From contig CAJXYE010000007.1 of NCBI GenBank assembly GCA_913063325.1, forward strand, positions 46,701-110,700: a stretch of 64,000 nucleotides of DNA. The letters run 5' to 3'. The notes under the pieces were generated by a model. The model worked only from the letters and a program-made list of their open reading frames with translations. It did not search any database and was not told the origin of the DNA. The DNA is from an uncultured Colwellia sp. Lineage in GTDB: Bacteria; Pseudomonadota; Gammaproteobacteria; Enterobacterales; Alteromonadaceae. A program made the position numbers and the translations under genes. Shown here in pieces: positions 39,894-57,912 of this stretch (position 1 is its first letter; every line of letters begins with the position of its first letter).

Positions 39894-41420
39894 CTATGCC
39901 TTGCAGTACTTAGCAATAAAGTCTTTTTGCATAGGCATAGTATCTACTGATTTTTGAATGACAGAATAGATATGCTCTAACCTTCGTGCAATTTCTTCTT
40001 CAGATAAAATATCAACTAACGGGTGATATCCCTGAGGATTTAATCCTTGTCCATGCATAACAGCTAGCCAAGAGGTTTCATTAAACAGTTCATTGTCTTG
40101 ACGAAAAATCCGTCCATTTTTTTGATATAGATCCATTTTGGCTTGCAAGCGATCTGAAACCTTCATATTTTGGCAATAACGCCAGAACTCTGAATCATCT
40201 CTATCCGTTGCTTTATAGTGGAGAACAATGAAGTCTCGGATATATTCAAGATCAGTTTTTGTCTGTGCATTGTAGGTATCAATATCTGTTTGGTCAAAAC
40301 CTTGATGCGGAAATAAACTCATCAGCTTAGCTATCGATGATTGTATTAAATGCAGTCCAGTCGATTCTAGCGGTTCAACAAAACCTGCTGATAGACCAAT
40401 GGCAACACAGTTTTTGTTCCAACTTTTTTTACGTACACCTGTTGTCCAACGTAAAAAATTCGGTTTGCCGATAGGCTCACCTTCCATTTGCGCTGTTAAT
40501 ATATTTACCGCCTCTTCATCGCTAACAAATTTACTTGGGTAGACATAGCCATTACCCACTCTGTGCTGCAGAGGTATTCGCCAAATCCAGCCAGATTTTT
40601 GTGCTTTAGCTTGAGTGAATGGGTATAACACATCTGTTTCTTTAGCCTTACAGGGCATAGCTACCGCCGTATCACATGGCAGTACATCACTCCAATCAAT
40701 GAAACCTGTTTTCATCGCACCTTCTATCAGCAAGGCTTTAAAACCGGTGCAATCTATAAACAGATCCCCTGCTACTCGCTCACCACTTTCCAATAATAAG
40801 CTATCAATAAAGCCATCACTGTCTCTCAATGAAACATCAATAACTTTACCTTCGCTTCGTATTACGCCACGTTCGACAGCAAAATCTCGTAAGTAATCGG
40901 CATAGAGAGTGGCATCAAAATGAAAAGCATAATTAATTTGTGACAGTGGAGAATTACCCATATTTTGAGGACGCATAAACTTTCCTTGTCGTGCCGCAAC
41001 AGCAGCTAAGGAGTATTGTTCGAGATCAGGGCTTTTACCTTGCTGATGCATTTTAAGCCAATAATGATGAAATTGGATGGCATCCATAGCAGTACCATGA
41101 TCGCCAAAGGGGTGCATATAACCGCCGCCCTTTTTAGTCCAATCAACAAATTCAATGCCTAGCTTAAAGGTCGCTTGGGTTTTCTTAACAAAGTCATTTT
41201 CGTCTATGCCGAGGATTTTGTTAAATAACGATATTTGTGGAATAGTTGCTTCGCCTACTGAAACTGTGCCAATTTGGTCTGATTCAATCAAGCGGATATC
41301 GCAATAATTTTTGCCTAATACTTTTGCTAAGGTCGCTGCCGTCATCCAGCCAGCGGTACCACCACCAACAATAACTATGTTGTTAATTTTTTTTTGTTGA
41401 TTTGCTGTTGCTTGATTCAT
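39894..41420 (-). CDS. flavin-dependent tryptophan halogenase-like protein (copy A)
   Basis: 508 residues from ATG 41420 with GGGAG six bases upstream. The frame is open to 41504, but that stretch contains the terminator of the TonB receptor gene, so the longer start is unlikely. FAD site IVIVGGGTAGWMTAATLAK, the VGEATIPQI segment, the Lys of ATFKLGIEFVDW that in PrnA/RebH holds the hypohalite, the halogenase motif SGWIWRIPLQH and the active-site Glu in EPLESTGLHLI are all present. By sequence it is a complete halogenase. Neighbouring TonB receptor and glycosidases are not a known tryptophan pathway, so the real substrate is open. Closest in the window is copy B. Confidence 0.85.
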   Translation of the reverse strand: MNQATANQQKKINNIVIVGGGTAGWMTAATLAKVLGKNYCDIRLIESDQIGTVSVGEATIPQISLFNKILGIDENDFVKKTQATFKLGIEFVDWTKKGGGYMHPFGDHGTAMDAIQFHHYWLKMHQQGKSPDLEQYSLAAVAARQGKFMRPQNMGNSPLSQINYAFHFDATLYADYLRDFAVERGVIRSEGKVIDVSLRDSDGFIDSLLLESGERVAGDLFIDCTGFKALLIEGAMKTGFIDWSDVLPCDTAVAMPCKAKETDVLYPFTQAKAQKSGWIWRIPLQHRVGNGYVYPSKFVSDEEAVNILTAQMEGEPIGKPNFLRWTTGVRKKSWNKNCVAIGLSAGFVEPLESTGLHLIQSSIAKLMSLFPHQGFDQTDIDTYNAQTKTDLEYIRDFIVLHYKATDRDDSEFWRYCQNMKVSDRLQAKMDLYQKNGRIFRQDNELFNETSWLAVMHGQGLNPQGYHPLVDILSEEEIARRLEHIYSVIQKSVDTMPMQKDFIAKYCKA

Positions 41421-41462
41421 AACTGTCTCCCAGAAAAGAATGTATAAATGCAGAAAATAAAG

Positions 41463-41502
41463 AAAAAAGCCGCCCCTAACATCAGGGAACAATAGGGACG
41501 GC
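41463..41502 (-). terminator. terminator between the TonB receptor and halogenase A
   Basis: On the minus strand the stem GCCGTCCCTA / TAGGGGCGGC (41502-41493 with 41478-41469, one G-U pair) is followed by six T (41468-41463). It lies 92 bases beyond the TonB receptor stop and upstream of the halogenase ATG, and separates the two. Confidence 0.7.
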
Positions 41503-41550
41503 AAAAGGGGTTGATAAGTGTCGATGCCATCAATTCCCTCGAAAATTTAG

Positions 41551-41577
41551 GGGGCGCTACTTGCTAATAGCTGCCCC
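41551..41577 (-). terminator. GC-rich hairpin just after the TonB receptor stop
   Basis: GGGGC-GCTA (41551-41559) pairs with TAGC-T-GCCCC (41568-41577), one bulged base. On the minus strand it follows the stop codon by 17 bases and is followed by CTAAATTTTC. It may stabilise the mRNA 3' end or aid termination. Confidence 0.5.
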
Positions 41578-41593
41578 ACATTTAACCAACTAG

Positions 41594-44500
41594 CTAGAAA
41601 CTAGCACGTACCACTAAACTATAACGAGTATCATTGCTGAACCAAGAACGCGTTTTTCTATCACCTTCTTCATTAATCTGCATTGTTGTTTCAGTAATAC
41701 TGTTACTGATGTTGGTGCCTTGTAAACCTAACTTCCAGTTATCACTTACCTCCCAAAATATTGAAGCATCCAATTGACCATTTGCTTCATTATAAATAGG
41801 TAATGTAGTGATAACATCACGGGTAGTTAGCAAATAATCTGAACGCCAGTTATAAGCAATACGCGCTGAGATGCCAAACTTTTCGTACAATAGCGCAGCA
41901 TTAGCATTTTGCTCTGATAAACCTTCTAGCGGCATATTATCCCAGGCAAAATCGCCTGCAGAATCTGAGTTTGAGCTAGAATCATTCAAACCAGAGTTTG
42001 GTGAACCTTCCTCATCAATATGGGTATAGTTTAATTGAATACCTAAACCACTAAAGGCTCCTGGTAAAGTATCAAAAAATTGTTGGTACGCAACCTCTAT
42101 ACCTTTTATAGTTCCTTCATCACCATTAGTCGCACCCGAAACTTGTACTTCTTGAGTGACGCCATTATTTGTGTAATCGCGTAATGAGACGCCATTGATG
42201 AAATAATTAGATAAGTCTTTATAAAACACTGTAGTCGTTAACGAGCCTGCTTCAGAAAAATACCACTCTAATGATAAATCATAGTTATATGACTCCATTG
42301 GTTTGAGGTATGGGTTACCCGTACTTGCCGTATAACGTTCATATTCTTTAGAAATGAGTACTGGCTCTTCACCTTCTGGTACTGATGTATCATAGATTCT
42401 GATCGCGTCTTGACCTGAGATGCCAACATAATTACGTAAGTTGCCTAATGAAGGCAGAGAAATAGCCTCAGAAAATCCAAATCTAACTAACAACTCATCG
42501 GTTAAATTCAATTTAAAGTTAAGACTAGGTAGTACATTAGTATACTCATTGGAGGCGACCAATTCATTCGTCGCTTTGTTACCAAAAGCAGCTTGATCTG
42601 GCACTAAAAAGTGATTTTCGTCTTGTGGTTCTCCTTCTCCACTTTCTCTTGGAACATCATCTGGGTAAGTGATAGCACCATGAGTGTCATTTTCTAGTTT
42701 TACGTACCTAACACCAATATTGGCACTATAGTCATAACCGCCAATATCACCTTCAAAATTAAACTTCAGGTACGCTGCGGTGCTCGTTTCTTCTGTTTGG
42801 TTAACTTCTGAGGCTTCAAAATTACCTATTGAATTACTACTTCGGTCTGCAAGAGGAGTCCAACCCCAATCAACAGCTCTAGTTCCCTCTAACGCTTCAT
42901 TTAATCCTTGATAGTCTTGTACCATTGCTAAAGACGGGAATAAAAAGTTATTACCTCCTTCTGCAGTTAATACCTTACCTCTTCCTAAATTATCAAAGCT
43001 AACTTCATCATAAGGCACATCCGTATCAGAAAACCAAGTATTGCCGCCAGCCCAACCTTCAGATAAAACGCCCCAGTTATAGGTTGATTGTCTTGTTGTT
43101 TGTTCACGGTTTGAATAACGGGCACCTACTTCAATTGATTTAACGATACCGTTATCAAAGGTATATTCTGCATCTAAACGTGTGGCAAATTCCTCGCCTT
43201 CATTATCTGAAACATGATCCATAGCATTACGCCAAAAATTTACCTCAGGATCAGTAAAAGGTGCTGATGCTACATAATCAGCTTGGCCATTATAAGCTGG
43301 GTGATGAAGGCTGATTTTAGGTAAACCGCTTCCTCGAAGATCCATACCGACAACGGCACGGGTAGCACTGGCGACTGACACATCTTCAATTTCCATAGTT
43401 GCATCAACATATTGAATATCGAAGTTAAGTGCTAGACTATCGTTTGGGGTAAATTTAGCGTTAAAGCTAAAGTCATTAACAATCGATTCTTCATCACGTA
43501 CTCGCGTGACCATAGCATGCTGCATACCATAAAGTTGCGGAGAGCCGTCTCCACGCCAGCCAGCATTCGATGTAATAGTACCGCTTTCATAATAACCACT
43601 TTCATCATACTCAAAGGTAGTCCCTTCAACTGGAATCATCGGATTTTGGTCATCAGCAATTTCAATGACATTTTCATTCCAAGCAAGAGTCGCTTCTGAA
43701 CGTATATATTCACCCGTTAATAATATGGTTTTATCTGGGCTTTCCCACTGCAATGAACTGGTAAAACCGGTACGATCACTATCATCTTTTTTTATGCTGA
43801 CACGAGCTGATTCAGGCACGAAGGTATCTTGGCCATTTATTTGCTCTTGCTGTCTATAACGACCCACTTGTGCAGCATGAGATTCTACTTTTATCTCAGA
43901 AGAAGACGCATTAATTAAAAAGCCAAAACGTCCCGAATCAGTATCCCAAATATCACTATACAATGCTGAAAAGGTAGGCGCAGTTTCTTCACGTAAATCG
44001 GTATAAGTGGCATCAGCTGAAAAAGCAAAAACGCGACCATCGGCATCAAATGCTTTACGGGTATTAAGGTTTACCGTACCGGCGATACCACCTTCAATCA
44101 AATCGGCGGTTTGGTTTTTATAAAGTTCGACTGAGCCCATTAGCTCAGGAGATACATCTTCAAAGCTTAATCCACGACCCGAATCAGCAGAAAAGCTATC
44201 TCGACCATTAAACTCGCTTCGAACTTGATTTAAACCACGAACAACAACACCACCGCCTTCAACACCAAAGTGATCTGGATCATCTGCTGCCGCAAACCTT
44301 TCAATGGCAACACCCGGCATACGAGAAATAGCTTCTAATACACTTCTGTCTGGCATAGAGCCAATATCTTCTGAAGAAATAGCATCCATTACCGTATCGG
44401 CATTCATTTTCATGTTTTGTGCTGAAATTAAATTACCACGTTGGCCTTTAACTTCAATGACCTCAATAGCCTCTTTTTTTGTTTCCGCTTTGTTTTTTTC

Positions 44501-44653
44501 ATCTGCTTCGGCAGCATAAACAGAAGCAGAACTTAAACCTAGAATGGCCGATGCTATGATTGAGTGCTTAAAGGTACTTTTATTTTTTCTTGAATTTACG
44601 TCTGAATTAGCGCGTGAATTTTTTGCGCACATAGTGCCTATTTTGTTTTGCAT
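41594..44653 (-). CDS. TonB-dependent receptor (carbohydrate type) A
   Basis: 1,019 residues, preceded by AAGGGGAT. The signal region is long (basic NSRKNKSTFKHS, then SIIASAILGLSSASVYAAE). The TonB box region is near VIEVKGQRGN, the plug domain follows (about 70-200: DAISSEDIGSMPDRSVLEAI, GVVVRGLNQVRSEFNGRD), and then a beta-barrel ending in aromatic YSLVVRASF, the outer-membrane assembly signal. Size over 900 residues is typical for uptake of oligosaccharides rather than iron-siderophores. A TTGAACGTTCAA palindrome lies 173 bases upstream and halogenase A downstream. The likely role is import of glucan fragments into the periplasm. Confidence 0.92.
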   Translation of the reverse strand: MQNKIGTMCAKNSRANSDVNSRKNKSTFKHSIIASAILGLSSASVYAAEADEKNKAETKKEAIEVIEVKGQRGNLISAQNMKMNADTVMDAISSEDIGSMPDRSVLEAISRMPGVAIERFAAADDPDHFGVEGGGVVVRGLNQVRSEFNGRDSFSADSGRGLSFEDVSPELMGSVELYKNQTADLIEGGIAGTVNLNTRKAFDADGRVFAFSADATYTDLREETAPTFSALYSDIWDTDSGRFGFLINASSSEIKVESHAAQVGRYRQQEQINGQDTFVPESARVSIKKDDSDRTGFTSSLQWESPDKTILLTGEYIRSEATLAWNENVIEIADDQNPMIPVEGTTFEYDESGYYESGTITSNAGWRGDGSPQLYGMQHAMVTRVRDEESIVNDFSFNAKFTPNDSLALNFDIQYVDATMEIEDVSVASATRAVVGMDLRGSGLPKISLHHPAYNGQADYVASAPFTDPEVNFWRNAMDHVSDNEGEEFATRLDAEYTFDNGIVKSIEVGARYSNREQTTRQSTYNWGVLSEGWAGGNTWFSDTDVPYDEVSFDNLGRGKVLTAEGGNNFLFPSLAMVQDYQGLNEALEGTRAVDWGWTPLADRSSNSIGNFEASEVNQTEETSTAAYLKFNFEGDIGGYDYSANIGVRYVKLENDTHGAITYPDDVPRESGEGEPQDENHFLVPDQAAFGNKATNELVASNEYTNVLPSLNFKLNLTDELLVRFGFSEAISLPSLGNLRNYVGISGQDAIRIYDTSVPEGEEPVLISKEYERYTASTGNPYLKPMESYNYDLSLEWYFSEAGSLTTTVFYKDLSNYFINGVSLRDYTNNGVTQEVQVSGATNGDEGTIKGIEVAYQQFFDTLPGAFSGLGIQLNYTHIDEEGSPNSGLNDSSSNSDSAGDFAWDNMPLEGLSEQNANAALLYEKFGISARIAYNWRSDYLLTTRDVITTLPIYNEANGQLDASIFWEVSDNWKLGLQGTNISNSITETTMQINEEGDRKTRSWFSNDTRYSLVVRASF

Positions 44654-44980: not shown

Positions 44981-45754
44981 CTACTTAATCAAGGTTAATT
45001 TTTGGAAAACATCTGCAGTGATATAACCTAAGTTCTTACTGCCATTTACCGCTTTAATATCAACCGAGCCCATAAAATGTTCACGCTCTTTACTGCCATC
45101 GTTATCACAATAAGCCAACATAAAACCGAGCTTTTTACCCAAAGATAATTTAACTGGCTGGGACTTATCCTTTTGCCTGTTTGTGTGAGTCGGCGTTTGC
45201 AAAGAAAAGCTATCGTCATAAACACGAACAGCCATTTCCCAGATAACTTTATTAGGTGATTTTTCACTACGTCGCCAGACACTATCAATATGGTCATTTA
45301 ATAAAACAAAGTTATCAGAGCCATCGGTATTTTTTTCGCCCATATCTACCGACTGATTATCCAAAGCAACATGATAAGCAAAGGCATTATAGTTAAACTG
45401 GTGATTACCACCCGAGGCATCCTCATCAATAAAGATTTCTAAACAATCATCATCCCAATACAAATGACGCGGATCTGCGTGTTGATCAAATAAAATATCA
45501 TCGGTAATTTCTACCAATAAATATAATTGCTCTGCATCCCACATGACTTTAAACCGCCCGGAAAAATCTTCCTTACTTGGCATGCTTCCCAAGATTAATT
45601 GGTCAATTGGCTGCCAAGTCGCTAACTGCCAAGCAGATTCATCGGCAATACCATCAATAGTCATTTTCGTTGGTGATTTTAGCGCTTCAAGGGCTGATAC
45701 ATTGATAGAATAAAAGACTAAGAATGGTATTATAAATTTAAAATAGTTAGACAT
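44981..45754 (-). CDS. secreted CBM9/DOMON-like carbohydrate-binding protein
   Basis: 257 residues with a Sec signal (FKFIIPFLVFYSINVSALE). The mature part is one beta-sandwich related to the CBM9 family of xylanases and sugar-binding DOMON-like proteins: MTIDGIADESAW, GRFKVMWDAEQLYLLVEITDD, DCLEIFIDEDASGG, and a GFMLAYCDNDGS-type Trp/Asp/Asn region that contacts reducing sugars in CBM9. No catalytic module is attached. As a single domain in the periplasm it may bind cellobionate or oligosaccharide for delivery. It is the last gene of the GPH-GH94-gluconokinase operon, 3 bases after the kinase stop. Confidence 0.8.
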   Translation of the reverse strand: MSNYFKFIIPFLVFYSINVSALEALKSPTKMTIDGIADESAWQLATWQPIDQLILGSMPSKEDFSGRFKVMWDAEQLYLLVEITDDILFDQHADPRHLYWDDDCLEIFIDEDASGGNHQFNYNAFAYHVALDNQSVDMGEKNTDGSDNFVLLNDHIDSVWRRSEKSPNKVIWEMAVRVYDDSFSLQTPTHTNRQKDKSQPVKLSLGKKLGFMLAYCDNDGSKEREHFMGSVDIKAVNGSKNLGYITADVFQKLTLIK

Positions 45755-45757
45755 TAT

Positions 45758-46339
45758 TTACTTTCCTGATAATTGATTATGAGTAGTTACTTTTGTAGTA
45801 ATTACTTCTCTAATAATTGAGTAAGCGAGTTTATTTATTTCATCAAAAACCGACAAATAGGGCCGCTCTATATTTATGGTGCTGACATCTTGTTCACTGA
45901 GCAAAGGTGGCTCCATAGCTGCAAATTGGCTATCCAATAATTTTGCTGAAAAAAAGTGACTTTCACGCTGAGATATTCGCTTTGAAATAACAGCCTTATC
46001 ACCATCTAAATAGAAAAAATGACAAACAAAAGACAGCTCTCTAAAAAGTTGCCGATGCGCTGACTTTAAACCTGAATAGGCCAGCGCTACTGATTTTCCT
46101 TGCTGATATAATGAATTTAAATGCGCAATGATTGCTGCAAGCCAAGGTGCCCGCATTTCATCGGTTAATGGTTTGTTGTTTGCCATATGTTTTTTGGCTT
46201 GCTCGCTATGAAAATCATCAGCATCAAGAAAAGTTAATGAAAGTTCATCAGCCATTTCCTTAGCTAAACTCGACTTTCCGCTACCACTAACCCCCATGAC
46301 AATAAATAGCCGTGGCGTATCTCTGTCAATATTAACCAT
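45758..46339 (-). CDS. gntK: gluconokinase
   Basis: 193 residues. It phosphorylates gluconate to 6-phosphogluconate in the cytosol. P-loop VMGVSGSGKSSLA, gluconate-binding DADDFHSEQAKKHMANNKPLTDEMRAPWL region and the LAYSGLKSAHRQLFR block (usually CSALKRxYR) are present. The YSG/SAH differences from GntK are mild. It overlaps the GH94 stop by 8 bases, so it is co-translated. The link matters: a GH94 enzyme that phosphorolyses cellobionic acid gives glucose 1-phosphate and gluconate, and this kinase takes the gluconate onward to the pentose phosphate or Entner-Doudoroff route. Confidence 0.88.
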   Translation of the reverse strand: MVNIDRDTPRLFIVMGVSGSGKSSLAKEMADELSLTFLDADDFHSEQAKKHMANNKPLTDEMRAPWLAAIIAHLNSLYQQGKSVALAYSGLKSAHRQLFRELSFVCHFFYLDGDKAVISKRISQRESHFFSAKLLDSQFAAMEPPLLSEQDVSTINIERPYLSVFDEINKLAYSIIREVITTKVTTHNQLSGK

Positions 46340-48746
46340 GCGCCGCTACCCTCACCTGAAGTTGATACTCTTGCCCTGACTGTAAATTTGTCAATACATT
46401 TCCAGTGACAATTTGTTTATCAAGTAATACTTCCATGTTAATAATATCGCTTGCCTGTTCAATATTGAAGTTGATAACGACGCCCCTAAACAGACGTTGT
46501 CCTGATAGGTTTTTTAAGCTAGCTGGCAGCTTGGGACTGATTTGCAAACCGCTTGCACAGCCTTTTAAGCCACAAAGCTCTTCCACTAAGCAGCGATATA
46601 ACCAAGAAATGGTGCCGGTATTAAATAAATGGCTAGAGCGACCCGCTTGCTGTGGAAATTGATGATAGGCACCACGATAATAATTAGGTACATAGACAGG
46701 CAACTGCCCAGTTTTTTCTGCACTTTCAAGAGAGGGCAACATTTTACAAAGCAAATCAAAAGCAATATTATTTTGCCCTGCCTGATATAGCGCATAAATA
46801 TAAAATATTGCCGCATGATTATAAACAGAGCCATTTTCTGAAACGCCGGGATGCTTTTGGGTGATTCGACCAATATCTTCCACCATACTGGTATAGCTTG
46901 GCGCCAGCATCATCACACCTTGAGGTGTTGTTAACTGCTCAGTAATGGCGACAATCATATGCTTTTGTTGCTCTTCATTTGCAGCACCACTGAGCATGGC
47001 CCAGCTTTGCGGATTTAAAAATATCTTGCCTTCTTCATCTTCATTGGTACCAAAAACACGGCCACTGTCTGTTATACCGCGCGCAAACCACTCTCCATGC
47101 CAGAGGTGTTCATTAACCGCTTTATTTATTGCTTTGGCGGCAAAGCGGTATTCATCGTACTTTTGTATGTTAATACTAATATCGTACTCATCACAAAGAT
47201 TGCACCAAGAAGTTAATGCATAGGATGTCGCTAAAGATAACCAAGAAGAAACCCCCTTTCCTTGATAACCGACCATATTCATCGGATCACACCAATCACC
47301 TTGTTCAATAAAGCTTAAACCGCGATGGTCGGTGGCATTGATTAAATAATCTAACGCTAATTCAATATGTCGCGTAAAAGACTGCTGCTCTGTTGAGTCA
47401 GAAAAAGGGATCATTTCACTAAGTAAGCTAACATCTGCCGTCTCATTTAAATAAACAGTCAAACAAATAGGCAGCCAAACACCGTGATCGGCATGGGGTA
47501 TTTGATTAATATATTTCAGCTCAGCATTTTCGTGTAGCAGTACACCTTCTGGCATAGCACCATTTATGCTTTGTTGAGACACCGCTCGCATATAGGCTTG
47601 ACGAGTGACTTGTGTATCAATAAAAGCCATGCCCATATTATCTTGAATATAATTACGTGTTTGCGGATCGGTACTTAAGCGGTTAACGTCACCATGATAA
47701 AACATCTGCCTAGGTAACCAGTGATTGAAAAAGTCATTAAAAGCACTATTTCTTGTGTTACTGGCAAGGGTTAAACAAGCTTTTCCCTGAGCAATATATT
47801 CTTGATAATCATTTATAGCCTTACTACGTTGTTGATGCCCCAAGTACTTTTCTTTGATATTAGCGATTTCAACTTCATCTTTTGCTGGACCAAATAAAAA
47901 TTGCAAAGTTTTACGTTCACTAGGCAATAACTGCTGTTGAAACTGCATCACGGCAACAGGTGTTTCATAACGCGCTTCAACATTTTCTAATCGTTCTGAC
48001 TGCAAAGCACTAGGGTTATGTAAGCCACCCTCACCTTCAAAAGCTTTTTGATTAGTATGCCAAGCCGTCGGAATGGTATCGCTTAGAAAGAAGGTTTTAT
48101 CTTTTAGCTGCGCATTTTTAAAATAATCTTCAACTTTTTGGTAAGGAGTAACACTGGTCGCGACAATGGCATTTAGTCCTTCGTCATAAGTCGCTGATTG
48201 ATTCATCCATGACATATATCCAATAGAGAAATACGGATAAATGCTAATACTTCTTGTCGTTTCAGTTAAATTACAGATTGAAAAAAACCAGCATTCAACT
48301 AAATCATCTTTTGTTAAATTAACTTTAATACTTATCTGCAAGCCACTATGCTCAATTGACCAAGTAATATCACTATTGCCTAACTCAAAAGAAAACTTAT
48401 CTAGCTCAACTCGCATAGGCTCATAAGGCAGAGAAATTATCTCACCACTGTCTTCATCTTTTAGGTAGAAAAAACGCCCTGGATGATGCGTAAAGTAACT
48501 ATGCTCTGGCTGAATAAAACTTTTCGCTTCCATATTTGGCGCATAAGAATACTTAGCGGGCTCAGGTTGCATAAACTGTGAATTAACATAACCGCGACAA
48601 TTTACCTGCATTACCATGGCGTTATTCCATAGAAACCCCGTAGCATTAGGAAGCTTTGTTGGACTGGTAAGTTTAACTTTACTGAAACTGTTATCAGTAT
48701 TGTCTATAGAAATTAAAGGCTGCTTCGCTGAAGAAAATTTAGACAT
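46332..48746 (-). CDS. GH94 glycoside phosphorylase, probable cellobionic acid phosphorylase
   Basis: 804 residues from ATG 48746 (AGGAG 7 bases upstream, overlapping the transporter stop by 8 bases); the frame opens at 48785. No signal peptide, so it acts in the cytosol. The N-terminal beta-sandwich and (alpha/alpha)6 catalytic domain of GH94 are present, with the general acid D487 in EQGDWCDPMN and the phosphate-binding region HPGVSENGS. In IGRITQKHPG the residues R627 and K631 sit four apart, matching the Arg609/Lys613 pair that I recall binds the carboxylate in Saccharophagus cellobionic acid phosphorylase; cellobiose phosphorylases differ here. The adjacent gluconokinase supports that specificity. 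Cellobiose or another disaccharide stays possible. Confidence 0.85.
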   Translation of the reverse strand: MSKFSSAKQPLISIDNTDNSFSKVKLTSPTKLPNATGFLWNNAMVMQVNCRGYVNSQFMQPEPAKYSYAPNMEAKSFIQPEHSYFTHHPGRFFYLKDEDSGEIISLPYEPMRVELDKFSFELGNSDITWSIEHSGLQISIKVNLTKDDLVECWFFSICNLTETTRSISIYPYFSIGYMSWMNQSATYDEGLNAIVATSVTPYQKVEDYFKNAQLKDKTFFLSDTIPTAWHTNQKAFEGEGGLHNPSALQSERLENVEARYETPVAVMQFQQQLLPSERKTLQFLFGPAKDEVEIANIKEKYLGHQQRSKAINDYQEYIAQGKACLTLASNTRNSAFNDFFNHWLPRQMFYHGDVNRLSTDPQTRNYIQDNMGMAFIDTQVTRQAYMRAVSQQSINGAMPEGVLLHENAELKYINQIPHADHGVWLPICLTVYLNETADVSLLSEMIPFSDSTEQQSFTRHIELALDYLINATDHRGLSFIEQGDWCDPMNMVGYQGKGVSSWLSLATSYALTSWCNLCDEYDISINIQKYDEYRFAAKAINKAVNEHLWHGEWFARGITDSGRVFGTNEDEEGKIFLNPQSWAMLSGAANEEQQKHMIVAITEQLTTPQGVMMLAPSYTSMVEDIGRITQKHPGVSENGSVYNHAAIFYIYALYQAGQNNIAFDLLCKMLPSLESAEKTGQLPVYVPNYYRGAYHQFPQQAGRSSHLFNTGTISWLYRCLVEELCGLKGCASGLQISPKLPASLKNLSGQRLFRGVVINFNIEQASDIINMEVLLDKQIVTGNVLTNLQSGQEYQLQVRVAAHG

Positions 48747-50214
48747 TAACAGCTCCTGTTGAATCAGCTTGACCGCCACTAACATTCTGCTTTTCTTGTT
48801 GTGCTATTTTTTGTTGTGCTGTGCTTTGTTGTACCGCTTTTTGTTGCTCAATATCTTGCTGAGTTTGTAATTCAGTCTGCAGCTTTTTCAATTTTTCATC
48901 ATCCAATGGGTAAAAATAAATTAACGGTACGGCAATAGCCGCAAAGATTGCCGGGACCACCGTCATTAACAAGACAATGCCCTCTTGCGATGTACCCGTT
49001 TGCACTTGGTTGGCAATATAACCTAATGAAGCTAGCGTCCAGCCAATCATAGCGCCGGCTAAAGCGCCGCCTAACTTTTGCGCAAAAGCAGCTGCTGAAA
49101 ATATCATTGCCGTTGCCCTTCTCCCCGTGCGCCACTGCGAAAAATCAGCGGTATCGGCATACATAGAAAAAACCAAGGGGGATTTAGGGCCTAGTGCTAA
49201 ACCAATCATTATTTGCAAGGCAAACATCAAGGTAATGTTGTCTTTTGGCACAAAGTAAAAAACCAAAGAGAGTGCCGCGACAAGTGTCATTAAAATCATT
49301 AATAAACGACGTTTATCAACAAACTTAGTCAGTAGTGGCGTCGACGCAGCACCAATAGCTAAAGCAATCATATAAACCATGGCAAAACTGCCAATAAGAT
49401 CAGGCCGCTCAACATAATATTTAAAATAAAAAGTACCAGTACTGCCTCTTAATGAGATAGTCATCATGATGATGAGCGCTAAGACAAATAAAACTTTCCA
49501 TGGTTTATTTTGTGTTAAGTCTTTTAAGTCCTGCATTACTGGTGTTTTTTGATTGGCCGGTGGCGATACACGCTCCGTGGTAGATAAGAAGGTAATAGTA
49601 AAGAGCACTGCTGCGATTAAACCATAGACCAGCATAGTATATTGCCAACCAAGTGCTTCATTGCCTTGTCCTAAGTAAGCCACTAATTCAGGTGTCATAT
49701 AGGCAACAATACTGCCCCCTGAAAAAGCGCCAATAAAACGAAAACTGGTGAGCGTCGTTCTTTGCTGAGTATCCGATGTCACCACGCCAAGTAAAGCGCC
49801 ATAAGGCACATTAATAAAGGTGTAAGCTAACATCATAAATATGTAAGTACCGTAGGCCCAAATGAGTTTATTGCCGTCACTGACATCAGGCACAGTAAAA
49901 GTAAGTACCCCTGCGGCGACCATAGGGATGATGCCCCAAAGTAAATAAGGTCTGAACTTACCAAACTTTGTTTTGGTTCTATCGGCAATTGCTCCCATCA
50001 AGGGATCAGAAAAAGCATCAATGAGTCGAGTCACTAACATCATGGTACCTACAGCAGCGGCTGAAAGACCAAAAACATCGGTATAGAATATAAAGAGAAA
50101 TACATCAAAGACACGCCAATAAAAATTTGAGGCAACATCACCACAGGCATAACCTACTTTTTCACCTAAGCTCAGACCTAAATTCTGTTGATGTTGTTTT
50201 ATTTTTTTTATCAT
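48739..50214 (-). CDS. GPH-family sugar:cation symporter
   Basis: 491 residues from ATG 50214 (GGTGG about 10 bases upstream); 17 extra codons back to 50265 are less likely. About 12 hydrophobic segments. GPH (glycoside-pentoside-hexuronide) signatures are present: KVGYACGDVASNFYWRVFDV, RLIDAFSDPLMGAIADRTKT with KFGKFRPYLLWG, and the FINVPYGALLG loop. The C-terminal tail is Gln/Glu-rich (QTQQDIEQQKAVQQS), of unknown function. It probably imports cellobionate or cellobiose into the cytosol. It heads the operon with GH94, gluconokinase and the CBM9-like gene, and a LacI-type operator lies 92 bases upstream. Confidence 0.9.
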   Translation of the reverse strand: MIKKIKQHQQNLGLSLGEKVGYACGDVASNFYWRVFDVFLFIFYTDVFGLSAAAVGTMMLVTRLIDAFSDPLMGAIADRTKTKFGKFRPYLLWGIIPMVAAGVLTFTVPDVSDGNKLIWAYGTYIFMMLAYTFINVPYGALLGVVTSDTQQRTTLTSFRFIGAFSGGSIVAYMTPELVAYLGQGNEALGWQYTMLVYGLIAAVLFTITFLSTTERVSPPANQKTPVMQDLKDLTQNKPWKVLFVLALIIMMTISLRGSTGTFYFKYYVERPDLIGSFAMVYMIALAIGAASTPLLTKFVDKRRLLMILMTLVAALSLVFYFVPKDNITLMFALQIMIGLALGPKSPLVFSMYADTADFSQWRTGRRATAMIFSAAAFAQKLGGALAGAMIGWTLASLGYIANQVQTGTSQEGIVLLMTVVPAIFAAIAVPLIYFYPLDDEKLKKLQTELQTQQDIEQQKAVQQSTAQQKIAQQEKQNVSGGQADSTGAVNV

Positions 50215-50305
50215 TTTCAAGCCACCACAGTTACTGAAAGTTACACTTACATTCAAAGACTGCAAAGTTAGTAATTACCTATTTGTATCGTATACCGTCA
50301 CGCAA

Positions 50306-50647: not shown

Positions 50648-53600
50648 ATGAGTCAGAAAACATTTACTAAAACAAGAATTGCAACAAGCTTGTCACTGAT
50701 ACTTGGCGTAACTGCGCTACCAGCAATATCAGCAGAAGAAGCTGCTATAAAGGATAATGTCGAAGTTATCGAAGTAACAGGCATGCGCTCTAGCATTAAA
50801 GAGTCAACTCGTTTAAAACGCGATGCTACCGGTGTTGTTGATGCAATTTCAGCAGAAGATATCGGTAAGTTCCCTGATACTAACTTAGCAGAATCTTTAC
50901 AACGTATTACCGGTGTTTCAATTGACCGTTCAAATGGCGAAGGTAGCAGAGTAACGGTTCGTGGTTTCGGTCCTCAGTATAATATGGTTACCTTAAATGG
51001 TCGCTTTATGGCTTCAACTACCTTACCTGATGGTGGCGGCGCTTCTGATAACCGTGCATTTGATTTCCAAAACCTTGCTTCTGATGCAGTTAAGTCAGTA
51101 GAAATATATAAAACAGCAAATGCTGCTGCTGCCAGTGGTGGTATTGGTGCAACCATTAACATTAATACCGCTAAGCCGCTTGATAACCCAGGTTTTGTTG
51201 CCAGCATTGGTGGTAAAGCAATGATGGATACCTCGGTAAGAGATGGTGTTCGTGATTACAGTGATCAAGTAACACCTGAACTTTCGGGTTTATTAAGCTG
51301 GACAGATGAAGACGAAATGTTTGGTGCTTCTCTGACGGGGAGTTTCTCTCAACGTGATAGTAGTGCAACACAAGCCGTTGTTGCACAATGGCGTAACGGT
51401 GTATATGACGGAACAGTTCCTGATATGGTACCTAGTACTTCTCCTGGCGCTCCGACTCAGTTAAATAATGCACCTGGTATTGGTGAAAATTATGCACTGC
51501 CTTCAGACCTTGGTTACCGCCTATGGGATAGACAACGCGAACGTACTAACGCACTATTGACATTACAATATCGCCCTATCGATTCTGTCACCGCAACGTT
51601 TGATTATACTTACTCTAAGTTAGAGCAAGAGCAACAAGGTACCGAATTATCAATTTGGATGTCAGATTATAAAAGTGACATCACTTTTACTGATGGTTTA
51701 AACCCTTCTCCTTTACATTATGCAGAAGATAAACGCGAACAAGCACCTCGCGATATCGCAGTAAAGCAAAAATATCGTAGCTCACTTACCGAAGATAAAG
51801 CTATTGGCTTAAACTTGCAGTGGGAAGTTAGTGATGATCTAGTATTAGCGTTTGATTACAACGATTCTTCTTCTGAAACGTCACCATTATCAAGCTACGG
51901 TAATGATGTTACTGTGGGTATAGGCTCTAACGTATTAGCACAACAAGGCGCGACTTATGGCGCCACAGGCTTCCCTGAAATCCATGTTGGTTTTGACGAT
52001 TGTGACCCTCGTATTGGCTTAAACTGTAATAATGCTTTTGATGTGAGTGATGTTGGTACTTCTATTTATCAAAAATCACATGCCTACAATACCAATGATA
52101 TTACTCAAATTCGTATTGACGGTACCTGGGAGTTTGAAGATGGTCAAATTGATTTTGGTGTTGAATCAAGAGAAATGGATAACCACTCAGTACAATCAAG
52201 CACTAACCAATCCATGGGTGATTGGGGTGTAAGTAACCCTGGGGAAGTTCCTGCATCAATGTTGGACGCTATCGATTTTAATGATTCTTTAGATGACTAT
52301 AAAACTGCTGGTTGGACACAAGCTTTCCGTGGCGATGCTATTGCTTTAGCCAATCATTTTGCACCTGTTTACGGCTTAGATTTAGCTCGTGATACTGCAA
52401 CGGGAACAGACCGTCGCATACAAGAAGATGTTACCGCTGCTTATGTAAAAGCTTCTTACGCTGGTTACATCGCTGATATGCCTTACAATGTTTCAGTAGG
52501 CCTACGTTATGAAGATACAAAATCTACCTCTACAGCTAACCTTGCTGCGCCAACAGCAGTACGCTGGGTAAGTAATAACGATTTTACTGTCGATCAAGGC
52601 GCTAATGAAAATGCTACCTTATTTAGCACGTCAAACTCTTACAGCCACCTTCTACCTAACATCGATTTTGATATTGATATTGTAGAAAATGTTAAAGCCC
52701 GCGCATCATTTAGTCAGACAATTGCTCGCCCTACCTATGGTCAACTGAGTAATGCTACAAGTATTACCGGTGGTCCAAATGCACCTACAGTACTTAATGG
52801 TACTACTGGCTCGGCAAATAGTGGTAACGCTTCACTTGTACCATTAGAGTCAACTAACATTGATATTTCAATGGAATGGTATTTTGATGATACAAGTTAT
52901 GTTTCTGCTGGTTACTTTAGAAAAGATGTTGATAAGTTTATCGGTAATGGACCACTTGTTGGTGATTATTACGGTTTAGGTGACCCAAGTGGCGGCCCAA
53001 GAGCTCTTAAAGCTATTGAAGATTTAAACGCTGCAGGTATATCCGTTAACGAAACAACGTTATTCTCACAAGTTGCAGCCACTATCTTAGGTGAAAATAT
53101 CTATGATAACGGTCATACTGATAACGATTATGAAGCATTAGTTGATGTTTACGCAAATAGCGATGACCCAGCAATGAGCTTTTTATCACAGTCACCAACG
53201 AACAACAAAAGTGCGGTGATAGATGGTATGGAGTTCGCTGTTCAGCATTTCTTTGGCGACAGTGGTTTTGGTTTCCAAGCAAACTATACCCTAGTTAATG
53301 GTGATATCGGTTTTGACTTAGCAAGCACTGCTGAGCAGTTTGCTTTACTTGGTTTAAGTGATACCGCTAACTTAGTATTGTTATATGAAATGGACGATTT
53401 CTCAGCACGTATCGCTTATAACTGGCGTGATGAGTTTTTAAATAATGCAGCAATCTATGAGAATGAACCTGAGTTTACTGAAGAGTACTCACAAATTGAT
53501 TTCAGTGTTGGTTATCAAGTAACCGACCAGTTCTCGATGTCATTTGCAGGCATTAACATTACAGGTGAAGACCCACGTAGACACGGTCGTACAAGTAACC

Positions 53601-53662
53601 AGGTAACGTTTGCTGAAGAGTGGAGTGCGCGTTATGAGTTAGGTCTTCGTTACACTTTCTAA
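50648..53662 (+). CDS. TonB-dependent receptor (carbohydrate type) B
   Basis: 1,004 residues with GGGGAT before the ATG. Sec signal about 1-29 (cleavage near ISAEE). The TonB box region is near EVIEVTGMRSS, then a plug domain (VVDAISAEDIGKFPDTNLAE, VTVRGFGPQYNMVTLNGR, GIGATININTAKP) and a large barrel ending SARYELGLRYTF, with terminal Phe. It resembles the CarO/maltodextrin type used for glucans. It belongs to the LacI-type regulon by its upstream palindrome and is followed by SapC and halogenase B. It is a paralogue of receptor A with low overall identity. Confidence 0.94.
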   Translation: MSQKTFTKTRIATSLSLILGVTALPAISAEEAAIKDNVEVIEVTGMRSSIKESTRLKRDATGVVDAISAEDIGKFPDTNLAESLQRITGVSIDRSNGEGSRVTVRGFGPQYNMVTLNGRFMASTTLPDGGGASDNRAFDFQNLASDAVKSVEIYKTANAAAASGGIGATININTAKPLDNPGFVASIGGKAMMDTSVRDGVRDYSDQVTPELSGLLSWTDEDEMFGASLTGSFSQRDSSATQAVVAQWRNGVYDGTVPDMVPSTSPGAPTQLNNAPGIGENYALPSDLGYRLWDRQRERTNALLTLQYRPIDSVTATFDYTYSKLEQEQQGTELSIWMSDYKSDITFTDGLNPSPLHYAEDKREQAPRDIAVKQKYRSSLTEDKAIGLNLQWEVSDDLVLAFDYNDSSSETSPLSSYGNDVTVGIGSNVLAQQGATYGATGFPEIHVGFDDCDPRIGLNCNNAFDVSDVGTSIYQKSHAYNTNDITQIRIDGTWEFEDGQIDFGVESREMDNHSVQSSTNQSMGDWGVSNPGEVPASMLDAIDFNDSLDDYKTAGWTQAFRGDAIALANHFAPVYGLDLARDTATGTDRRIQEDVTAAYVKASYAGYIADMPYNVSVGLRYEDTKSTSTANLAAPTAVRWVSNNDFTVDQGANENATLFSTSNSYSHLLPNIDFDIDIVENVKARASFSQTIARPTYGQLSNATSITGGPNAPTVLNGTTGSANSGNASLVPLESTNIDISMEWYFDDTSYVSAGYFRKDVDKFIGNGPLVGDYYGLGDPSGGPRALKAIEDLNAAGISVNETTLFSQVAATILGENIYDNGHTDNDYEALVDVYANSDDPAMSFLSQSPTNNKSAVIDGMEFAVQHFFGDSGFGFQANYTLVNGDIGFDLASTAEQFALLGLSDTANLVLLYEMDDFSARIAYNWRDEFLNNAAIYENEPEFTEEYSQIDFSVGYQVTDQFSMSFAGINITGEDPRRHGRTSNQVTFAEEWSARYELGLRYTF

Positions 53663-53971: not shown

Positions 53972-54709
53972 ATGGCGAATCACGACATTCTCGATAATAA
54001 AAACCACAAAGACATTAAAGTTATTACCCATTTTAACGATGAGTTTTCAGAAAATACGAACAGTGCCTTAATATTCCCAACCGAAATGAAAGCAGCACAA
54101 CGTGACTACCCTATTCTATTTATTAAAAACCCAGATACCGGACAGTTTCAAAGTGTGGTATTACTGGGCTTAGTTGCTGGTGAGAATCTTTATATTAATA
54201 ACGGTTGGCAAGCCAGTTACATCCCTGCGATGATGAACAAAGGCCCATTTACTATATGTTATGAAGAAAAAGAACAAAATGGCGAAAAAGTTAAACAGCC
54301 AATAGTTGCCATTGATATGGACAGCCCGAGAGTAAACAAAGAAAATGGCGAGCCAATATTTTTAGCTGATGGTCAAGCGAGTCCTTACTTACAACAAGTA
54401 AACCAATCACTAAAAACACTGCATGATGGTTCACAGTTAAGTCAGCAAATGTTTAAATCTTTCTTAAAACATGACTTAATTGAACCTCTGGCTTTAAAAA
54501 TCGAGTTGAATAATGGTGAAAAAATTTCTCTTCAAGGTAATTATACCCTTAACGAAGAAAAGCTTGCTCAGCTCAGTGGCGATGCACTAACTGAGCTGAA
54601 TAGCTCTGGTCTACTAAGAGTCGCTTATTTCATTACGGCTTCTTTGGACAATATCCAGCGATTAGTCGACTTCAAAAACAATCAACAATCAACAAGTAAT
54701 AATCAATAA
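53972..54709 (+). CDS. SapC-family protein
   Basis: 245 residues, no signal peptide. The family signature is clear: FPTEMKAAQRDYPILFIKN, GLVAGENLYINNGWQASYIPA, GPFTICY, IDMDSPRVNKENGEPIFLADGQASPYL. SapC was named from the Campylobacter S-layer region, but in marine and plant-associated proteobacteria it recurs between TonB receptors and tryptophan-halogenase-like genes in polysaccharide loci, with no biochemical role shown. It precedes halogenase B by 54 bases and is probably co-transcribed. Conserved Asp and Ser residues hint at an enzymatic or binding role. Confidence 0.85.
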   Translation: MANHDILDNKNHKDIKVITHFNDEFSENTNSALIFPTEMKAAQRDYPILFIKNPDTGQFQSVVLLGLVAGENLYINNGWQASYIPAMMNKGPFTICYEEKEQNGEKVKQPIVAIDMDSPRVNKENGEPIFLADGQASPYLQQVNQSLKTLHDGSQLSQQMFKSFLKHDLIEPLALKIELNNGEKISLQGNYTLNEEKLAQLSGDALTELNSSGLLRVAYFITASLDNIQRLVDFKNNQQSTSNNQ

Positions 54710-54763
54710 CTTTTCTGGACACTCTGTTTAGACAGTTACGTCAGTGTATATTTTGAGGTGTAA

Positions 54764-56248
54764 ATGAATAATCAAAAAATTACTAAAGTAGTTATTGCTG
54801 GTGGCGGAACTGCTGGTTGGATGGCTGCAGCCTCTTTATCAAAATTGTTAGGTAAAAGTTTTGATATCACCTTAGTAGAATCAGATCAAATAGGCACTGT
54901 CGGAGTTGGTGAAGCTGCCATTCCTACCCTTACTGCATTTCATCGCTTACTCGGTATCAATGAGCAAGCCTTCATGAAAGCAACACATGCAACGTTTAAG
55001 TTAGGTATAAATTTTGAAAAATGGGAAAAGGGTGATGATGAATATATGCATGGCTTTGGTCGTGTAGGAAAAGAATGTTGGGCTGGAGAATTTCAGCATT
55101 TTTGGTTGCATGGCAAACAAAACAACATTGAGTTTGACTTTGATCATTATTCACCTGAAATTCAAGCAGCTAAAGCTGAAAAATTTTCACTTTCAAAAGG
55201 CGGCTTAAATTACTCTTATCATTTAGATGCAACGCTGTATGCCAAGTTTTTACGTACATTTGCCGAGGCTCATGGTGTTAAGCGCATAGAAGGTAAAATT
55301 ACTGAGGTAAGCAAAGACTGTAAAACAGGTGACATCACATCATTAGCACTTGATAACGGTAACGTTATTGAAGGTCAGTTATTTATTGATTGCACAGGTT
55401 TTGTTGGTTTACTTATCGAAAAAGCGTTACATACAGGTTACGAAGATTGGTCACACTGGTTACCGTGCGATAGTGCTGTAGCGGTACAAACAAAGTCTGT
55501 ATCAGCACCTTTGCCTTATACCCGCTCTATCGCCCATGAAAGTGGCTGGCAGTGGCGTATCCCATTACAGCATAGAGTCGGTAATGGTTTAGTATTTTGC
55601 AGTAAGTACTTAGCTGATGAAGAGGCTAAAAACTTATTGATGGATAATATTGAAGGTGAGGCAATTAACCAACCCAGAGTCATTAAGTTTAAGACTGGCC
55701 GTAGAAGAAAAGGTTGGAATAAAAATTGTGTTGCCTTAGGTTTATCGAGTGGCTTCTTAGAGCCATTGGAATCAACCAGTATCCATTTGATCATGTCAGG
55801 TGTTTTACGGTTAATTCGACTCTTTCCTTTCGAAGGGATCACACCTGCTACTGTTAACGAATATAATCAACAACTCACCTCTGAACTAGAACATATCAGG
55901 GATTTTATTATTTTGCATTACCATGCCACGCAGCGAGAAGACACCCCGTTTTGGCAGTATTGTAAAAATATGGAAATACCTGAATCACTCAAACAAAGGT
56001 TAGATTTATTCAAAGAAACAGGTCGTGTTTTTACTACTGAAGGGGAATTATTCCGCGTTGATTCATGGGTACAAGTCATGTTAGGCCAAGGTATTTATCC
56101 TGAGCAATACCATCAAATTGCCGCTATTATGAAACAACACGAACTCGAAAGGTTCTTAGGGGATATCAGGCAAACCATTGATAAGGCTATTGCTGGTTTA
56201 CCTTCACATCAAAGCTTCTTAAACGACTATTGTCGTTCAACGATATAG
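54764..56248 (+). CDS. flavin-dependent tryptophan halogenase-like protein (copy B)
   Basis: 494 residues with GAGGTG before the ATG. FAD site VVIAGGGTAGWMAAASLSK, VGEAAIPTLTAF, Lys in ATFKLGINFEKW, halogenase motif SGWQWRIPLQH and Glu in LEPLESTSIHLI are all present. It shares most blocks with copy A (VLPCDTAV/WLPCDSAV, RVGNGYVY/RVGNGLVF, RDFIVLHYKAT/RDFIILHYHAT), so both descend from one duplicated gene. It lies in a TonB receptor-SapC-halogenase order seen in other polysaccharide loci. The substrate is unknown; a free tryptophan role is unlikely without biosynthetic partners. Confidence 0.86.
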   Translation: MNNQKITKVVIAGGGTAGWMAAASLSKLLGKSFDITLVESDQIGTVGVGEAAIPTLTAFHRLLGINEQAFMKATHATFKLGINFEKWEKGDDEYMHGFGRVGKECWAGEFQHFWLHGKQNNIEFDFDHYSPEIQAAKAEKFSLSKGGLNYSYHLDATLYAKFLRTFAEAHGVKRIEGKITEVSKDCKTGDITSLALDNGNVIEGQLFIDCTGFVGLLIEKALHTGYEDWSHWLPCDSAVAVQTKSVSAPLPYTRSIAHESGWQWRIPLQHRVGNGLVFCSKYLADEEAKNLLMDNIEGEAINQPRVIKFKTGRRRKGWNKNCVALGLSSGFLEPLESTSIHLIMSGVLRLIRLFPFEGITPATVNEYNQQLTSELEHIRDFIILHYHATQREDTPFWQYCKNMEIPESLKQRLDLFKETGRVFTTEGELFRVDSWVQVMLGQGIYPEQYHQIAAIMKQHELERFLGDIRQTIDKAIAGLPSHQSFLNDYCRSTI

Positions 56249-56279
56249 TCCTCTACGCTTTACGCCTTAAATCTTATAA

Positions 56280-56316
56280 AAAAGACCAAGCACATTAATT
56301 AATGTGCTTGGTCTTA
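56280..56316. terminator. bidirectional terminator between halogenases B and C
   Basis: AAGACCAAGCACATTAA (56282-56298) and its perfect complement (56299-56315) form a 34-base palindrome, with an A run on the left, between converging genes. Confidence 0.8.
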
Positions 56317-56352
56317 GAATGTTTATCTACAAGGTCATCTGTCTTAAAAGAT

Positions 56353-57912
56353 CTAAATCTTCTGCATACCATATTCTTTTATTTTATTAATCAGCTCTCT
56401 ATTGCTGGGCAATATCGATAGGTATTTTTTTGTAAGCTCGGCATTTTCATTAAAAAATTGATTTGCTATTTCGTCGTTAACAAACTTTCGAGACACTTGA
56501 TTTTCTTGTGTTTCAAAGCCCATACCATAGAGCACATATTGCCAACTTGAAGAGGGAAAGACCTCATCAACATGATGGAAATCTTGCGGCCCTGGTGGTT
56601 GATGTTTCCATAAAGCTAATAATTCTTTTAGGCTTTCTGGGATAGTTTCTACATTACAGTTGTCTCGCCAATAAGCAGAGTCTGTTCTTTGGGTTAATAC
56701 ATAATGCAGCTTTAAAAACGCGATAATACGCTCCCAGCGATACAAAAACTGTTTATTATATCGCTTAGCAACTATGTCCATGGTTTCGCGAGTTGCTGGC
56801 ATTTCCTTACTGATTTTGGCAGCTGCTAGCTCAACTAAGACTAGAGCAGAAGCCTCCAGAGGCTCTAAAAAACCTGATGCCATACCAATAGCAACACAGT
56901 TTTTATGCCAGAACTTTTCTCTATGCCCTGGGTTAAAGCTTATTTTTCTAACGTTAAGCTTATCTGTTTCAGCTTTGCCAATAGAGGACTCAATATAAGC
57001 ACGCAGTTCTAGTTCAGCATCTTTTTCATTAGTATGTTCACTTGAGTAGGCATAACCAACCCCTCGTCTTGAAGGTAACCCTATATCCCAAATCCAGCCA
57101 CAGCTTTGCGCTGTTGATATAGTATGTGAAGCAATAGGACTATTCTCGTCAGCGTAAGGCACTTGTACTGCCAAGGCAGTATCATTAAACAATATGTGCT
57201 TTTTGCTAATAAAGGGGATTTTAAAGTGCTTGCCCAATATTATTGAAGATAACCCAGAGCAGTCAATGAATAAATCGCCAGCAATATCACCACTCTCTTT
57301 GGTGGTGACTGATGCAACATCACCATTGTCAGCTGAATTTATGGCTGTTACATGGTCAATAATATGGTTAACGCCTAACTTTTCAATACAGTGTTTTTGC
57401 AAGAACTGACCTAACTTAACCGCGTTAAGGTGATAAGCATAATTAGCTATACCGGCATATTCAGGTGTTGAAATAAGTTTAGGTGCACGGCCTTGCTCAC
57501 AGATGTGACCTTGATAACTAACGGCATCAGCAAATGATATTTCGGCTCGATGTTTCTGCCATGGGAAAACAAGATCTGTTTTGGTATAGCCCTGTGGTAA
57601 CACCAATGGATGATAATAATAATCGTCTTGTGCACCGGTAACCCATTTAGAAAATTTTGCACCTTGTTTAAAGGAGGCTTCACATTCTCTAAATAAATCA
57701 GTTTCATCTATGCCAATTTTATCTAAGGTTTCTCGCATGGTAGGCCAAGTACCCTCACCTACACCAACGGTGTTAACCTCAGGTGACTCTATTAATGTCA
57801 CTTGTAAACCTGATTCAGACTTAGCGTTATGCTCCGCAGCAATCACTCCTGCAGTTAACCAACCAGCGGTTCCGCCGCCAACAATGATTACTTTACGAAC
57901 AACGTTATTCAT
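56353..57912 (-). CDS. tryptophan halogenase-like protein (copy C), divergent motif
   Basis: 519 residues with GGTGAG before the ATG. FAD site VIIVGGGTAGWLTAGVIAAEH, VGEGTWPTMRETL, Lys in ASFKQGAKFSKW and Glu in LEPLEASALVLV are kept. However, the WxWxIP halogenase motif reads SCGWIWDIGLPSR, so Arg-Ile-Pro is replaced by Asp-Ile-Gly. The family relies on this motif to keep substrate away from the monooxygenase route, so the chemistry may differ (hydroxylation, or another substrate). It is more distant from A and B than they are from each other. It converges on copy B and has a long 5' region containing a LacI-type operator far upstream. Confidence 0.83.
   Translation of the reverse strand: MNNVVRKVIIVGGGTAGWLTAGVIAAEHNAKSESGLQVTLIESPEVNTVGVGEGTWPTMRETLDKIGIDETDLFRECEASFKQGAKFSKWVTGAQDDYYYHPLVLPQGYTKTDLVFPWQKHRAEISFADAVSYQGHICEQGRAPKLISTPEYAGIANYAYHLNAVKLGQFLQKHCIEKLGVNHIIDHVTAINSADNGDVASVTTKESGDIAGDLFIDCSGLSSIILGKHFKIPFISKKHILFNDTALAVQVPYADENSPIASHTISTAQSCGWIWDIGLPSRRGVGYAYSSEHTNEKDAELELRAYIESSIGKAETDKLNVRKISFNPGHREKFWHKNCVAIGMASGFLEPLEASALVLVELAAAKISKEMPATRETMDIVAKRYNKQFLYRWERIIAFLKLHYVLTQRTDSAYWRDNCNVETIPESLKELLALWKHQPPGPQDFHHVDEVFPSSSWQYVLYGMGFETQENQVSRKFVNDEIANQFFNENAELTKKYLSILPSNRELINKIKEYGMQKI

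Follow-up and report, generated by a model that had tools for sequence, protein, structure and literature searches.

A cassette of flavin-halogenase-like enzymes and SapC in receptor-linked glycan loci of Gamma- and Alphaproteobacteria

A 64,000-nucleotide stretch of DNA from an uncultured Colwellia sp. – the window, positions 46701-110700 of contig C7 (CAJXYE010000007.1) in a genome of 4.88 Mb and 126 contigs – carries three flavin-halogenase-like proteins (A, B and C) and one SapC protein beside TonB-dependent receptors. Our analysis indicates that this unit is a cassette of oxygen-dependent enzymes, often accompanied by SapC, that stands next to receptors for chemically different glycans. 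The cassette recurs beside outer-membrane sugar receptors in Gammaproteobacteria and Alphaproteobacteria. As to what the enzymes modify, we favour, with moderate confidence, a surface protein, most likely the co-encoded TonB receptor.

The halogenase stretch of the window

Profile searches of the window revealed two TIGR01782 TonB receptors, one SapC and three full-length Trp_halogenase (PF04820) proteins inside a glycan locus:

39894..41504, minus strand: halogenase A, directly downstream of receptor 1 (PF04820, 637 bits; Lys, Glu and WxWxIP kept)
41594..44653, minus strand: TonB-dependent receptor 1 (TIGR01782, 655 bits against a cut-off of 310)
50648..53662, plus strand: TonB-dependent receptor 2, TBDT2 (TIGR01782, 643 bits against a cut-off of 310)
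53972..54709, plus strand: SapC (PF07277, 232 bits against a cut-off of 28.9, E 6e-69), on the strand of receptor 2 and halogenase B
54764..56248, plus strand: halogenase B, Xcc4156/BrvH-like (PF04820, 634 bits)
56353..57912, minus strand: halogenase C, of the 2pyx-like class (PF04820, 389 bits), convergent with B

All three halogenases lie far above the PF04820 family cut-off of 21 bits, with matches that span the whole domain; the TTG start called for A is probably too early, and an ATG at residue 29 would place the gene at 39894-41420. The gene content reported by a first-pass annotation of this DNA is thus confirmed. That annotation also spoke of a recurring receptor-SapC-halogenase order. 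Within the window the order occurs just once (TBDT2-SapC-B), A following receptor 1 with no SapC between; the recurrence holds outside it, where receptor-SapC-B with a convergent C is kept in seven of seven loci from another collection.

Linkage to TonB receptors

The Colwellia genome itself contains seven full halogenases, three SapC proteins and 11 TIGR01782 receptors over the cut-off (profile searches). Every one of the seven halogenases has such a receptor no more than about 3 kb away, and five of the 11 receptors are linked in this way.

Comparison with controls came from a phylum-wide, evenly sampled draw of 150 genomes, 15 of which carry a halogenase at E <= 1e-60. These amount to 57 places, seven in our own genome; the other 50 are covered by 34 regions, which we set against 25 controls taken at shifted positions in the same genomes. 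The departure is striking: a TonB receptor is present in 28 of 34 halogenase regions as opposed to one of 25 controls (Fisher p 5.7e-10). SapC occurs in 12 of the 34 (p 4.9e-4), Cupin_8 in 11 (p 1.0e-3) and DUF6445 in six (p 0.030), each against none of the 25 controls. Counted by gene (49 halogenases, one weak copy excluded), a receptor is found in the same region for 43, within 5 kb for 39 and within 2 kb for 33. Co-occurrence is therefore not at chance level, and the suggestion that these genes form a defined, receptor-linked system in a glycan-uptake setting is borne out.

Composition of the cassette

Thirty related genomes contain 62 SapC places; the 40 with the best scores, together with the three from our own genome, gave 43 loci in which the make-up of the cassette was examined. 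Halogenases are present in 36 of them (57 genes), receptors in 33, DUF6445 in 15 and Cupin_8 in nine. The fullest loci (L031 and L099) run in the order receptor, class-C halogenase, SapC, Cupin_8, B-like halogenase, DUF6445; cassette genes are spaced as in an operon, with gaps mostly below 100 bp. Neither Cupin_8 nor DUF6445 was seen in the stretch 39894..57912 of the window.

On plasmids the association extends to the Alphaproteobacteria. That of Sphingobium RAC03 reads receptor-SapC-cupin-halogenase-GH16-LacI-MFS-GH3, and receptor, SapC and halogenase also occur together on plasmids of Sphingomonas R1, S. parapaucimobilis, Niveispirillum and Novosphingobium EMRT-2 and at one Catenovulum locus. 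Receptor-halogenase pairs lacking SapC are found in Asticcacaulis and at a second Catenovulum locus. Both the halogenase and the SapC family also have matches in Caulobacter vibrioides.

A model of DUF6445 from related loci has the double-stranded beta-helix oxygenase fold, and the H-x-D...H iron ligands and distal arginine (H115, D117, H207 and R225) are invariant in 61 sequences and retained in 22 of 22 cassette copies. On this model and motif we predict that DUF6445 is a 2-oxoglutarate (2OG)/Fe(II) oxygenase. One locus without a TonB receptor (L090:8011-20000) places DUF6445 and a halogenase next to an RTX/DUF11 repeat protein that is 2917 residues long or longer.

SapC itself gave a confident model (predicted local distance difference test score, pLDDT, 92.6), for which no fold match was detected in the PDB; its closest relatives among named records come from Colwellia and Psychrosphaera. 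The remaining seven of the 43 loci represent a separate, standalone SapC type (L017:12379-13149; L061, L063 and L065-L068), which occupies a conserved place beside an open reading frame (ORF) of about 110-120 residues and housekeeping genes (fts/rsmD-like by sequence); there is no halogenase and no receptor at those loci. Two other partners for SapC were considered. A tie to a hydroxylase or sulfotransferase was dropped, being seen at L017 and in none of the six other standalone loci. A tie to giant exported proteins is only suggestive: it is present on Azospirillum, Pseudosulfitobacter and Methylobacterium plasmids and absent from those of Mitsuaria, Marivivens, Aureimonas, Thiodictyon and Rhodospirillum. 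A DUF6447 gene adjoins SapC in plasmid loci of Pseudomonas canadensis and Sulfitobacter, and the Ensifer record is unannotated around SapC.

Catalytic residues and nearest relatives

Sequence comparison shows the GxGxxG motif for flavin adenine dinucleotide (FAD) and the catalytic Lys and Glu to be retained in A, B and C, and WxWxIP in A and B, as the first-pass annotation had it for the latter two; in B the Lys is Lys79. C reads WxWxIG, departing at the last residue of the motif, and for this reason is filed by fold family only. A and B are 49 % identical, C being 29 % identical to A and 31 % to B. Conservation is no less evident more widely: among 114 full halogenases from 84 loci the Lys is kept in 112, the Glu in 113 and the first Trp in all 114. 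Neither Lys nor Glu survives in four weakly matching halogenase-like genes (77-146 bits), which stand in tandem with halogenases that look active:

L080:9000-10457
L084:9047-10510
L088:8251-9435
L105:10826-12022

Judged by sequence, these may be non-catalytic partners.

The closest solved sequences to B over its full length are 6y1w (Xcc4156), 9luq and 6frl (BrvH), and those closest to C are 2pyx, 9ltb and 9lu2 (PDB sequence search); A, through its identity with B, would likewise resemble Xcc4156 and BrvH. Alignment of B with BrvH is gap-free along the C-terminal part, including the short loop of BrvH, whereas the match of B to PrnA stops at PrnA residue 434: on sequence, B does not have the long C-terminal tryptophan-binding loop of free-tryptophan halogenases of the PrnA/RebH type. 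Excerpts of the BrvH paper (PMC5945002) state that a short loop (432-444) replaces the longer one of RebH, that the active site is open and that free tryptophan is not halogenated; its authors drew a likeness to the peptide halogenase MibH. Xcc4156, too, leaves free tryptophan unhalogenated. The peptide idea was extended in work on Xcc4156, which records the native substrates of BrvH and of the Xanthomonas halogenases as unknown (PMC7336383).

A further candidate was rejected. Two partial PF04820 rows at L018 (G000:C69:1-16000, 5758-6993) correspond to one FAD-dependent oxidoreductase, a distant FAD protein rather than a cassette halogenase, among fatty-acid-synthase-like genes; the surroundings may resemble an aryl-polyene-type cluster.

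Glycan context

Further genes of the window place the halogenase stretch in a glycan locus:

27695..29314, plus strand: GH5 protein with CBM6 (PF00150, E 7.8e-51), same neighbourhood
29532..30626, plus strand: GH5 protein (PF00150, E 8.4e-55), upstream of the halogenase stretch
37098..39728, minus strand: GH3 protein with PA14 (PF00933 and PF01915), same glycan locus, upstream of the halogenase stretch
44981..45754, minus strand: CBM9-like protein (PF06452, E 1.6e-37)
45758..46339, minus strand: small P-loop kinase (PF13671, E 2.7e-12)
46332..48785, minus strand: GH94-family protein (PF17167, E 6.6e-59)
48739..50265, minus strand: GPH-family sugar symporter (TIGR00792, 403 bits, above cut-off)

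Among 20 window ORFs scanned there was no LacI-type DNA-binding match. At 58474-59679, right after the halogenase block, lies a histidine kinase whose N-terminal domain resembles that of ethylene receptors (PF25487, E 2e-27).

The glycan differs from locus to locus. In our own genome halogenases accompany GH94, GPH and GH3 genes (the window), a pullulanase, GH30 with GH5, and an N-acetylglucosamine (GlcNAc) set whose GH20-, GlcNAc-kinase- and NagA-like genes were recognised from sequence and whose PGI-family isomerase was identified by Pfam. Phylum-wide, we surveyed 101 neighbouring ORFs, up to two per side and none longer than 1100 residues. The commonest families were MFS (eight), LacI (seven), alpha-amylase (five) and GH3 (four); GH10 and sugar-transporter genes occur as well. 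Among the 25 families (of 159) listed for these ORFs there was no aromatic pathway and no flavin reductase.

Phage relatives

Relatives of B, about 30 % identical to it, are present in 82 of 50,697 phage records, mostly cyanophages. We inspected six marine phages (HTVC008M, P-SSM2, syn9, S-CREM1, S-SCSM2R and S-RIM44), and in each of the six, annotation or Pfam identifies one or more oxygenases of 2OG or phytanoyl type within 5 kb (in P-SSM2 through a PF05721 note only). In three of them – syn9, S-CREM1 and S-RIM44 – one or two halogenases come after tail-fibre or Gly_rich_2 proteins and precede a group of oxygenases, among them a JmjC_2/Cupin_8 protein and a phrog_1644 protein. The latter is annotated as "minor coat protein", and it also matches bacterial DUF6445 (E 1.9e-15). 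Two were located:

L221:8201-8992: phrog_1644 protein, DUF6445-related (syn9 gp46)
L224:7986-8750: phrog_1644 protein, DUF6445-related (S-RIM44)

Given this relationship, phrog_1644 is probably a 2OG/Fe oxygenase rather than a coat protein. In syn9, three of the five annotated 2OG oxygenases fall within 11.5 kb around the halogenases (111.5 kb examined). We regard the phage kit as a clue and not as a test, since cyanophages often carry 2OG oxygenases (14 of 16 genomes do, according to excerpts of PMC3037559). SapC matches a single record of the phage collection, MT835646.1, an unannotated 'Bacteriophage sp.' from faeces in which matches to halogenase B (52.5 %), SapC and DUF6445 occur together; it resembles a bacterial contig that has been entered among the phages.

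The nature of the substrate

A central issue is the entity upon which the cassette enzymes act. The first-pass annotation offered three options – an aromatic group on the polysaccharide, a ligand, or a protein partner – and the evidence leans toward the last. Enzymes of three unrelated families, all oxygen-using, are encoded alongside a large surface protein, which is the receptor at most bacterial loci, the RTX/DUF11 protein at L090 and the tail fibre in the three phages. A polypeptide is the simplest substrate class common to all, and we infer that the substrate is a polypeptide and the client the receptor. A, B, C and SapC have no signal peptide by eye and would thus act in the cytosol, where the halogenases would halogenate the receptor precursor ahead of export and, in fuller cassettes, the same-locus protein would also be hydroxylated. 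SapC could be a client adaptor that presents the unfolded client; this part of the scheme is weak, for SapC is found by itself and in other surroundings too, and no relative of its modelled fold was detected. The benefit would lie in an altered receptor surface, affecting stability, the grip on the ligand, or concealment from phages and bacteriocins.

Several observations weigh against modification of the receptor. Six of the 34 phylum-wide regions (L083, L090, L096, L101, L112 and L113) have no receptor, 22 of them lack SapC, and only six of 17 plasmid SapC loci inspected combine receptor and halogenase with SapC. Small molecules are the substrates of some proteins whose fold matches DUF6445 (PasI, HygX), and BrvH and Xcc4156, in excerpted reports, brominate free indole and its derivatives in vitro, BrvH slowly. 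Nor did the receptors bear a mark. Among 123 receptors, 78 cassette-linked (three with just one non-halogenase cassette gene nearby) and 45 unlinked, no alignment column separates the two groups beyond clade (best 0.73 against 0.26); columns in the plug domain had been candidates with fewer receptors, and with all 123 their signal follows clade. In the same set Trp is not enriched in linked receptors (1.28 against 1.35 %, p 0.75) and Tyr is slightly lower (3.94 against 4.16 %, p 0.047). The sites of modification could vary, or lie in receptor loops. It is the missing signature and aromatic enrichment, together with the six receptor-less regions, that hold our confidence in the receptor at a moderate level.

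A small-molecule alternative is that the halogenases act on a free aromatic in the cell – indole, a phenol or an algal aromatic that enters along with the glycan – and serve signalling, defence or detoxification under a regulation shared with sugar uptake. The absent signature and the bromination of indole both fit such a role. Furthermore, the wider halogenase family is not always receptor-linked: 31 of the 91 plasmid records that match B (records only) come from Streptomyces. In Streptomyces small-molecule halogenation would be usual. Yet the cassette is shared with two further oxygenase families and its neighbours are sugar transport, LacI and glycosidase genes, with no aromatic pathway among the families listed; moreover, the low activity of BrvH led its own authors to doubt indole as the natural substrate (excerpts of PMC5945002). 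We consider this alternative unlikely. Still less probable is a non-halogenating role for these flavin oxygenases, whether in hydroxylation, oxygen or redox sensing, or regulation of the locus. The WxWxIG of class C is in keeping with it, and the four tandem relatives without Lys and Glu indicate that non-catalytic roles exist near cassettes, but the near-universal retention of both residues in full copies and the fact that the solved relatives nearest to B are active brominases argue the other way.

An aromatic group on the polysaccharide degraded by the locus, the first option of the first-pass annotation, is very improbable. The loci are indeed for glycan degradation, but halogenases accompany beta-glucan-, pullulan- and GlcNAc-type loci, as well as GH30/GH5, alpha-amylase and GH10 genes; they share no single aromatic-bearing glycan, and this diversity speaks against such a substrate. 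A polymer outside the cell would in any case be out of reach of A, B, C and SapC, which have no signal peptide by eye. Hitch-hiking – a mobile block copied together, with no functional tie between receptor and halogenases – gains something from the many rows that derive from one genus and from loci that move as blocks. We nonetheless give it hardly any credence: the association persists in the 14 other genomes of the phylum-wide draw and on Alphaproteobacterial plasmids, and the linked receptors belong to several clades.

Modification of the receptor can be cast more broadly, and here we are tentative. It is possible that Gram-negative bacteria possess a dedicated cytosolic machinery, with SapC as adaptor, by which TonB sugar receptors, and some giant proteins that are secreted, are halogenated and hydroxylated prior to export, that T4-like marine phages apply a similar kit to tail fibres, and that an arms race between receptor and phage surfaces may follow.

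Relation to known systems

We found no description of this cassette in the accessible part of the open-licence PMC literature. B shares with BrvH and Xcc4156 its catalytic residues and short C-terminal loop, and a second halogenase gene adjoins that of BrvH; however, excerpts of their papers make no mention of TonB receptors or SapC, and the present analysis adds the cassette context along with Cupin_8 and DUF6445. The juxtaposition in the window of TonB receptor, inner-membrane sugar transporter and degradative enzymes, glycoside hydrolases included, is that of the TonB-receptor carbohydrate utilisation (CUT) loci (PMC1790865), although "halogenase" and "SapC" are absent from the main text of that paper, as they are from that of a Shewanella sugar paper (PMC2996990), in each case as far as the accessible text extends. 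The marine T4-like clusters of syn9, S-CREM1 and S-RIM44 resemble the cassette in uniting halogenase, phrog_1644 and JmjC_2/Cupin_8 genes in one run by tail-fibre-type genes; they differ in the distance of their halogenases from B and in having no SapC match beyond the one bacterial-looking record. Phage oxygenase and halogenase genes have been explained, in excerpts of the literature, by nitrogen metabolism, DNA repair, antibiotics or auxiliary metabolism.

MibH, which halogenates peptide tryptophan, is alike in its open active site, by the published comparison with BrvH (excerpts), but its substrate is a lantibiotic peptide. Cassette loci showed no conserved small precursor: no ORF of 20-100 residues is common to more than three loci in any of four locus groups, a search that would miss divergent or distant precursors, and the few small ORFs common to three loci are all shorter than 30 residues.

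The question of what BrvH and the Xanthomonas halogenases act on natively becomes directly testable once enzymes of this kind are seen as part of a receptor-linked cassette that includes SapC and two oxygenase families. Should the substrate prove to be protein, bacterial surface proteins would be halogenated as a matter of routine, which would bear on glycan uptake, on recognition by phages and bacteriocins, and on marine halogen chemistry. A case in point is Colwellia sp. MT41, whose halogenase transcripts in an oil/dispersant study were interpreted as antibiotic or phage biology (excerpts of PMC11337851). The SapC of MT41 (P0021) is 87 % identical to that of the window, and a receptor-linked role is thus an alternative worth checking for those transcripts.

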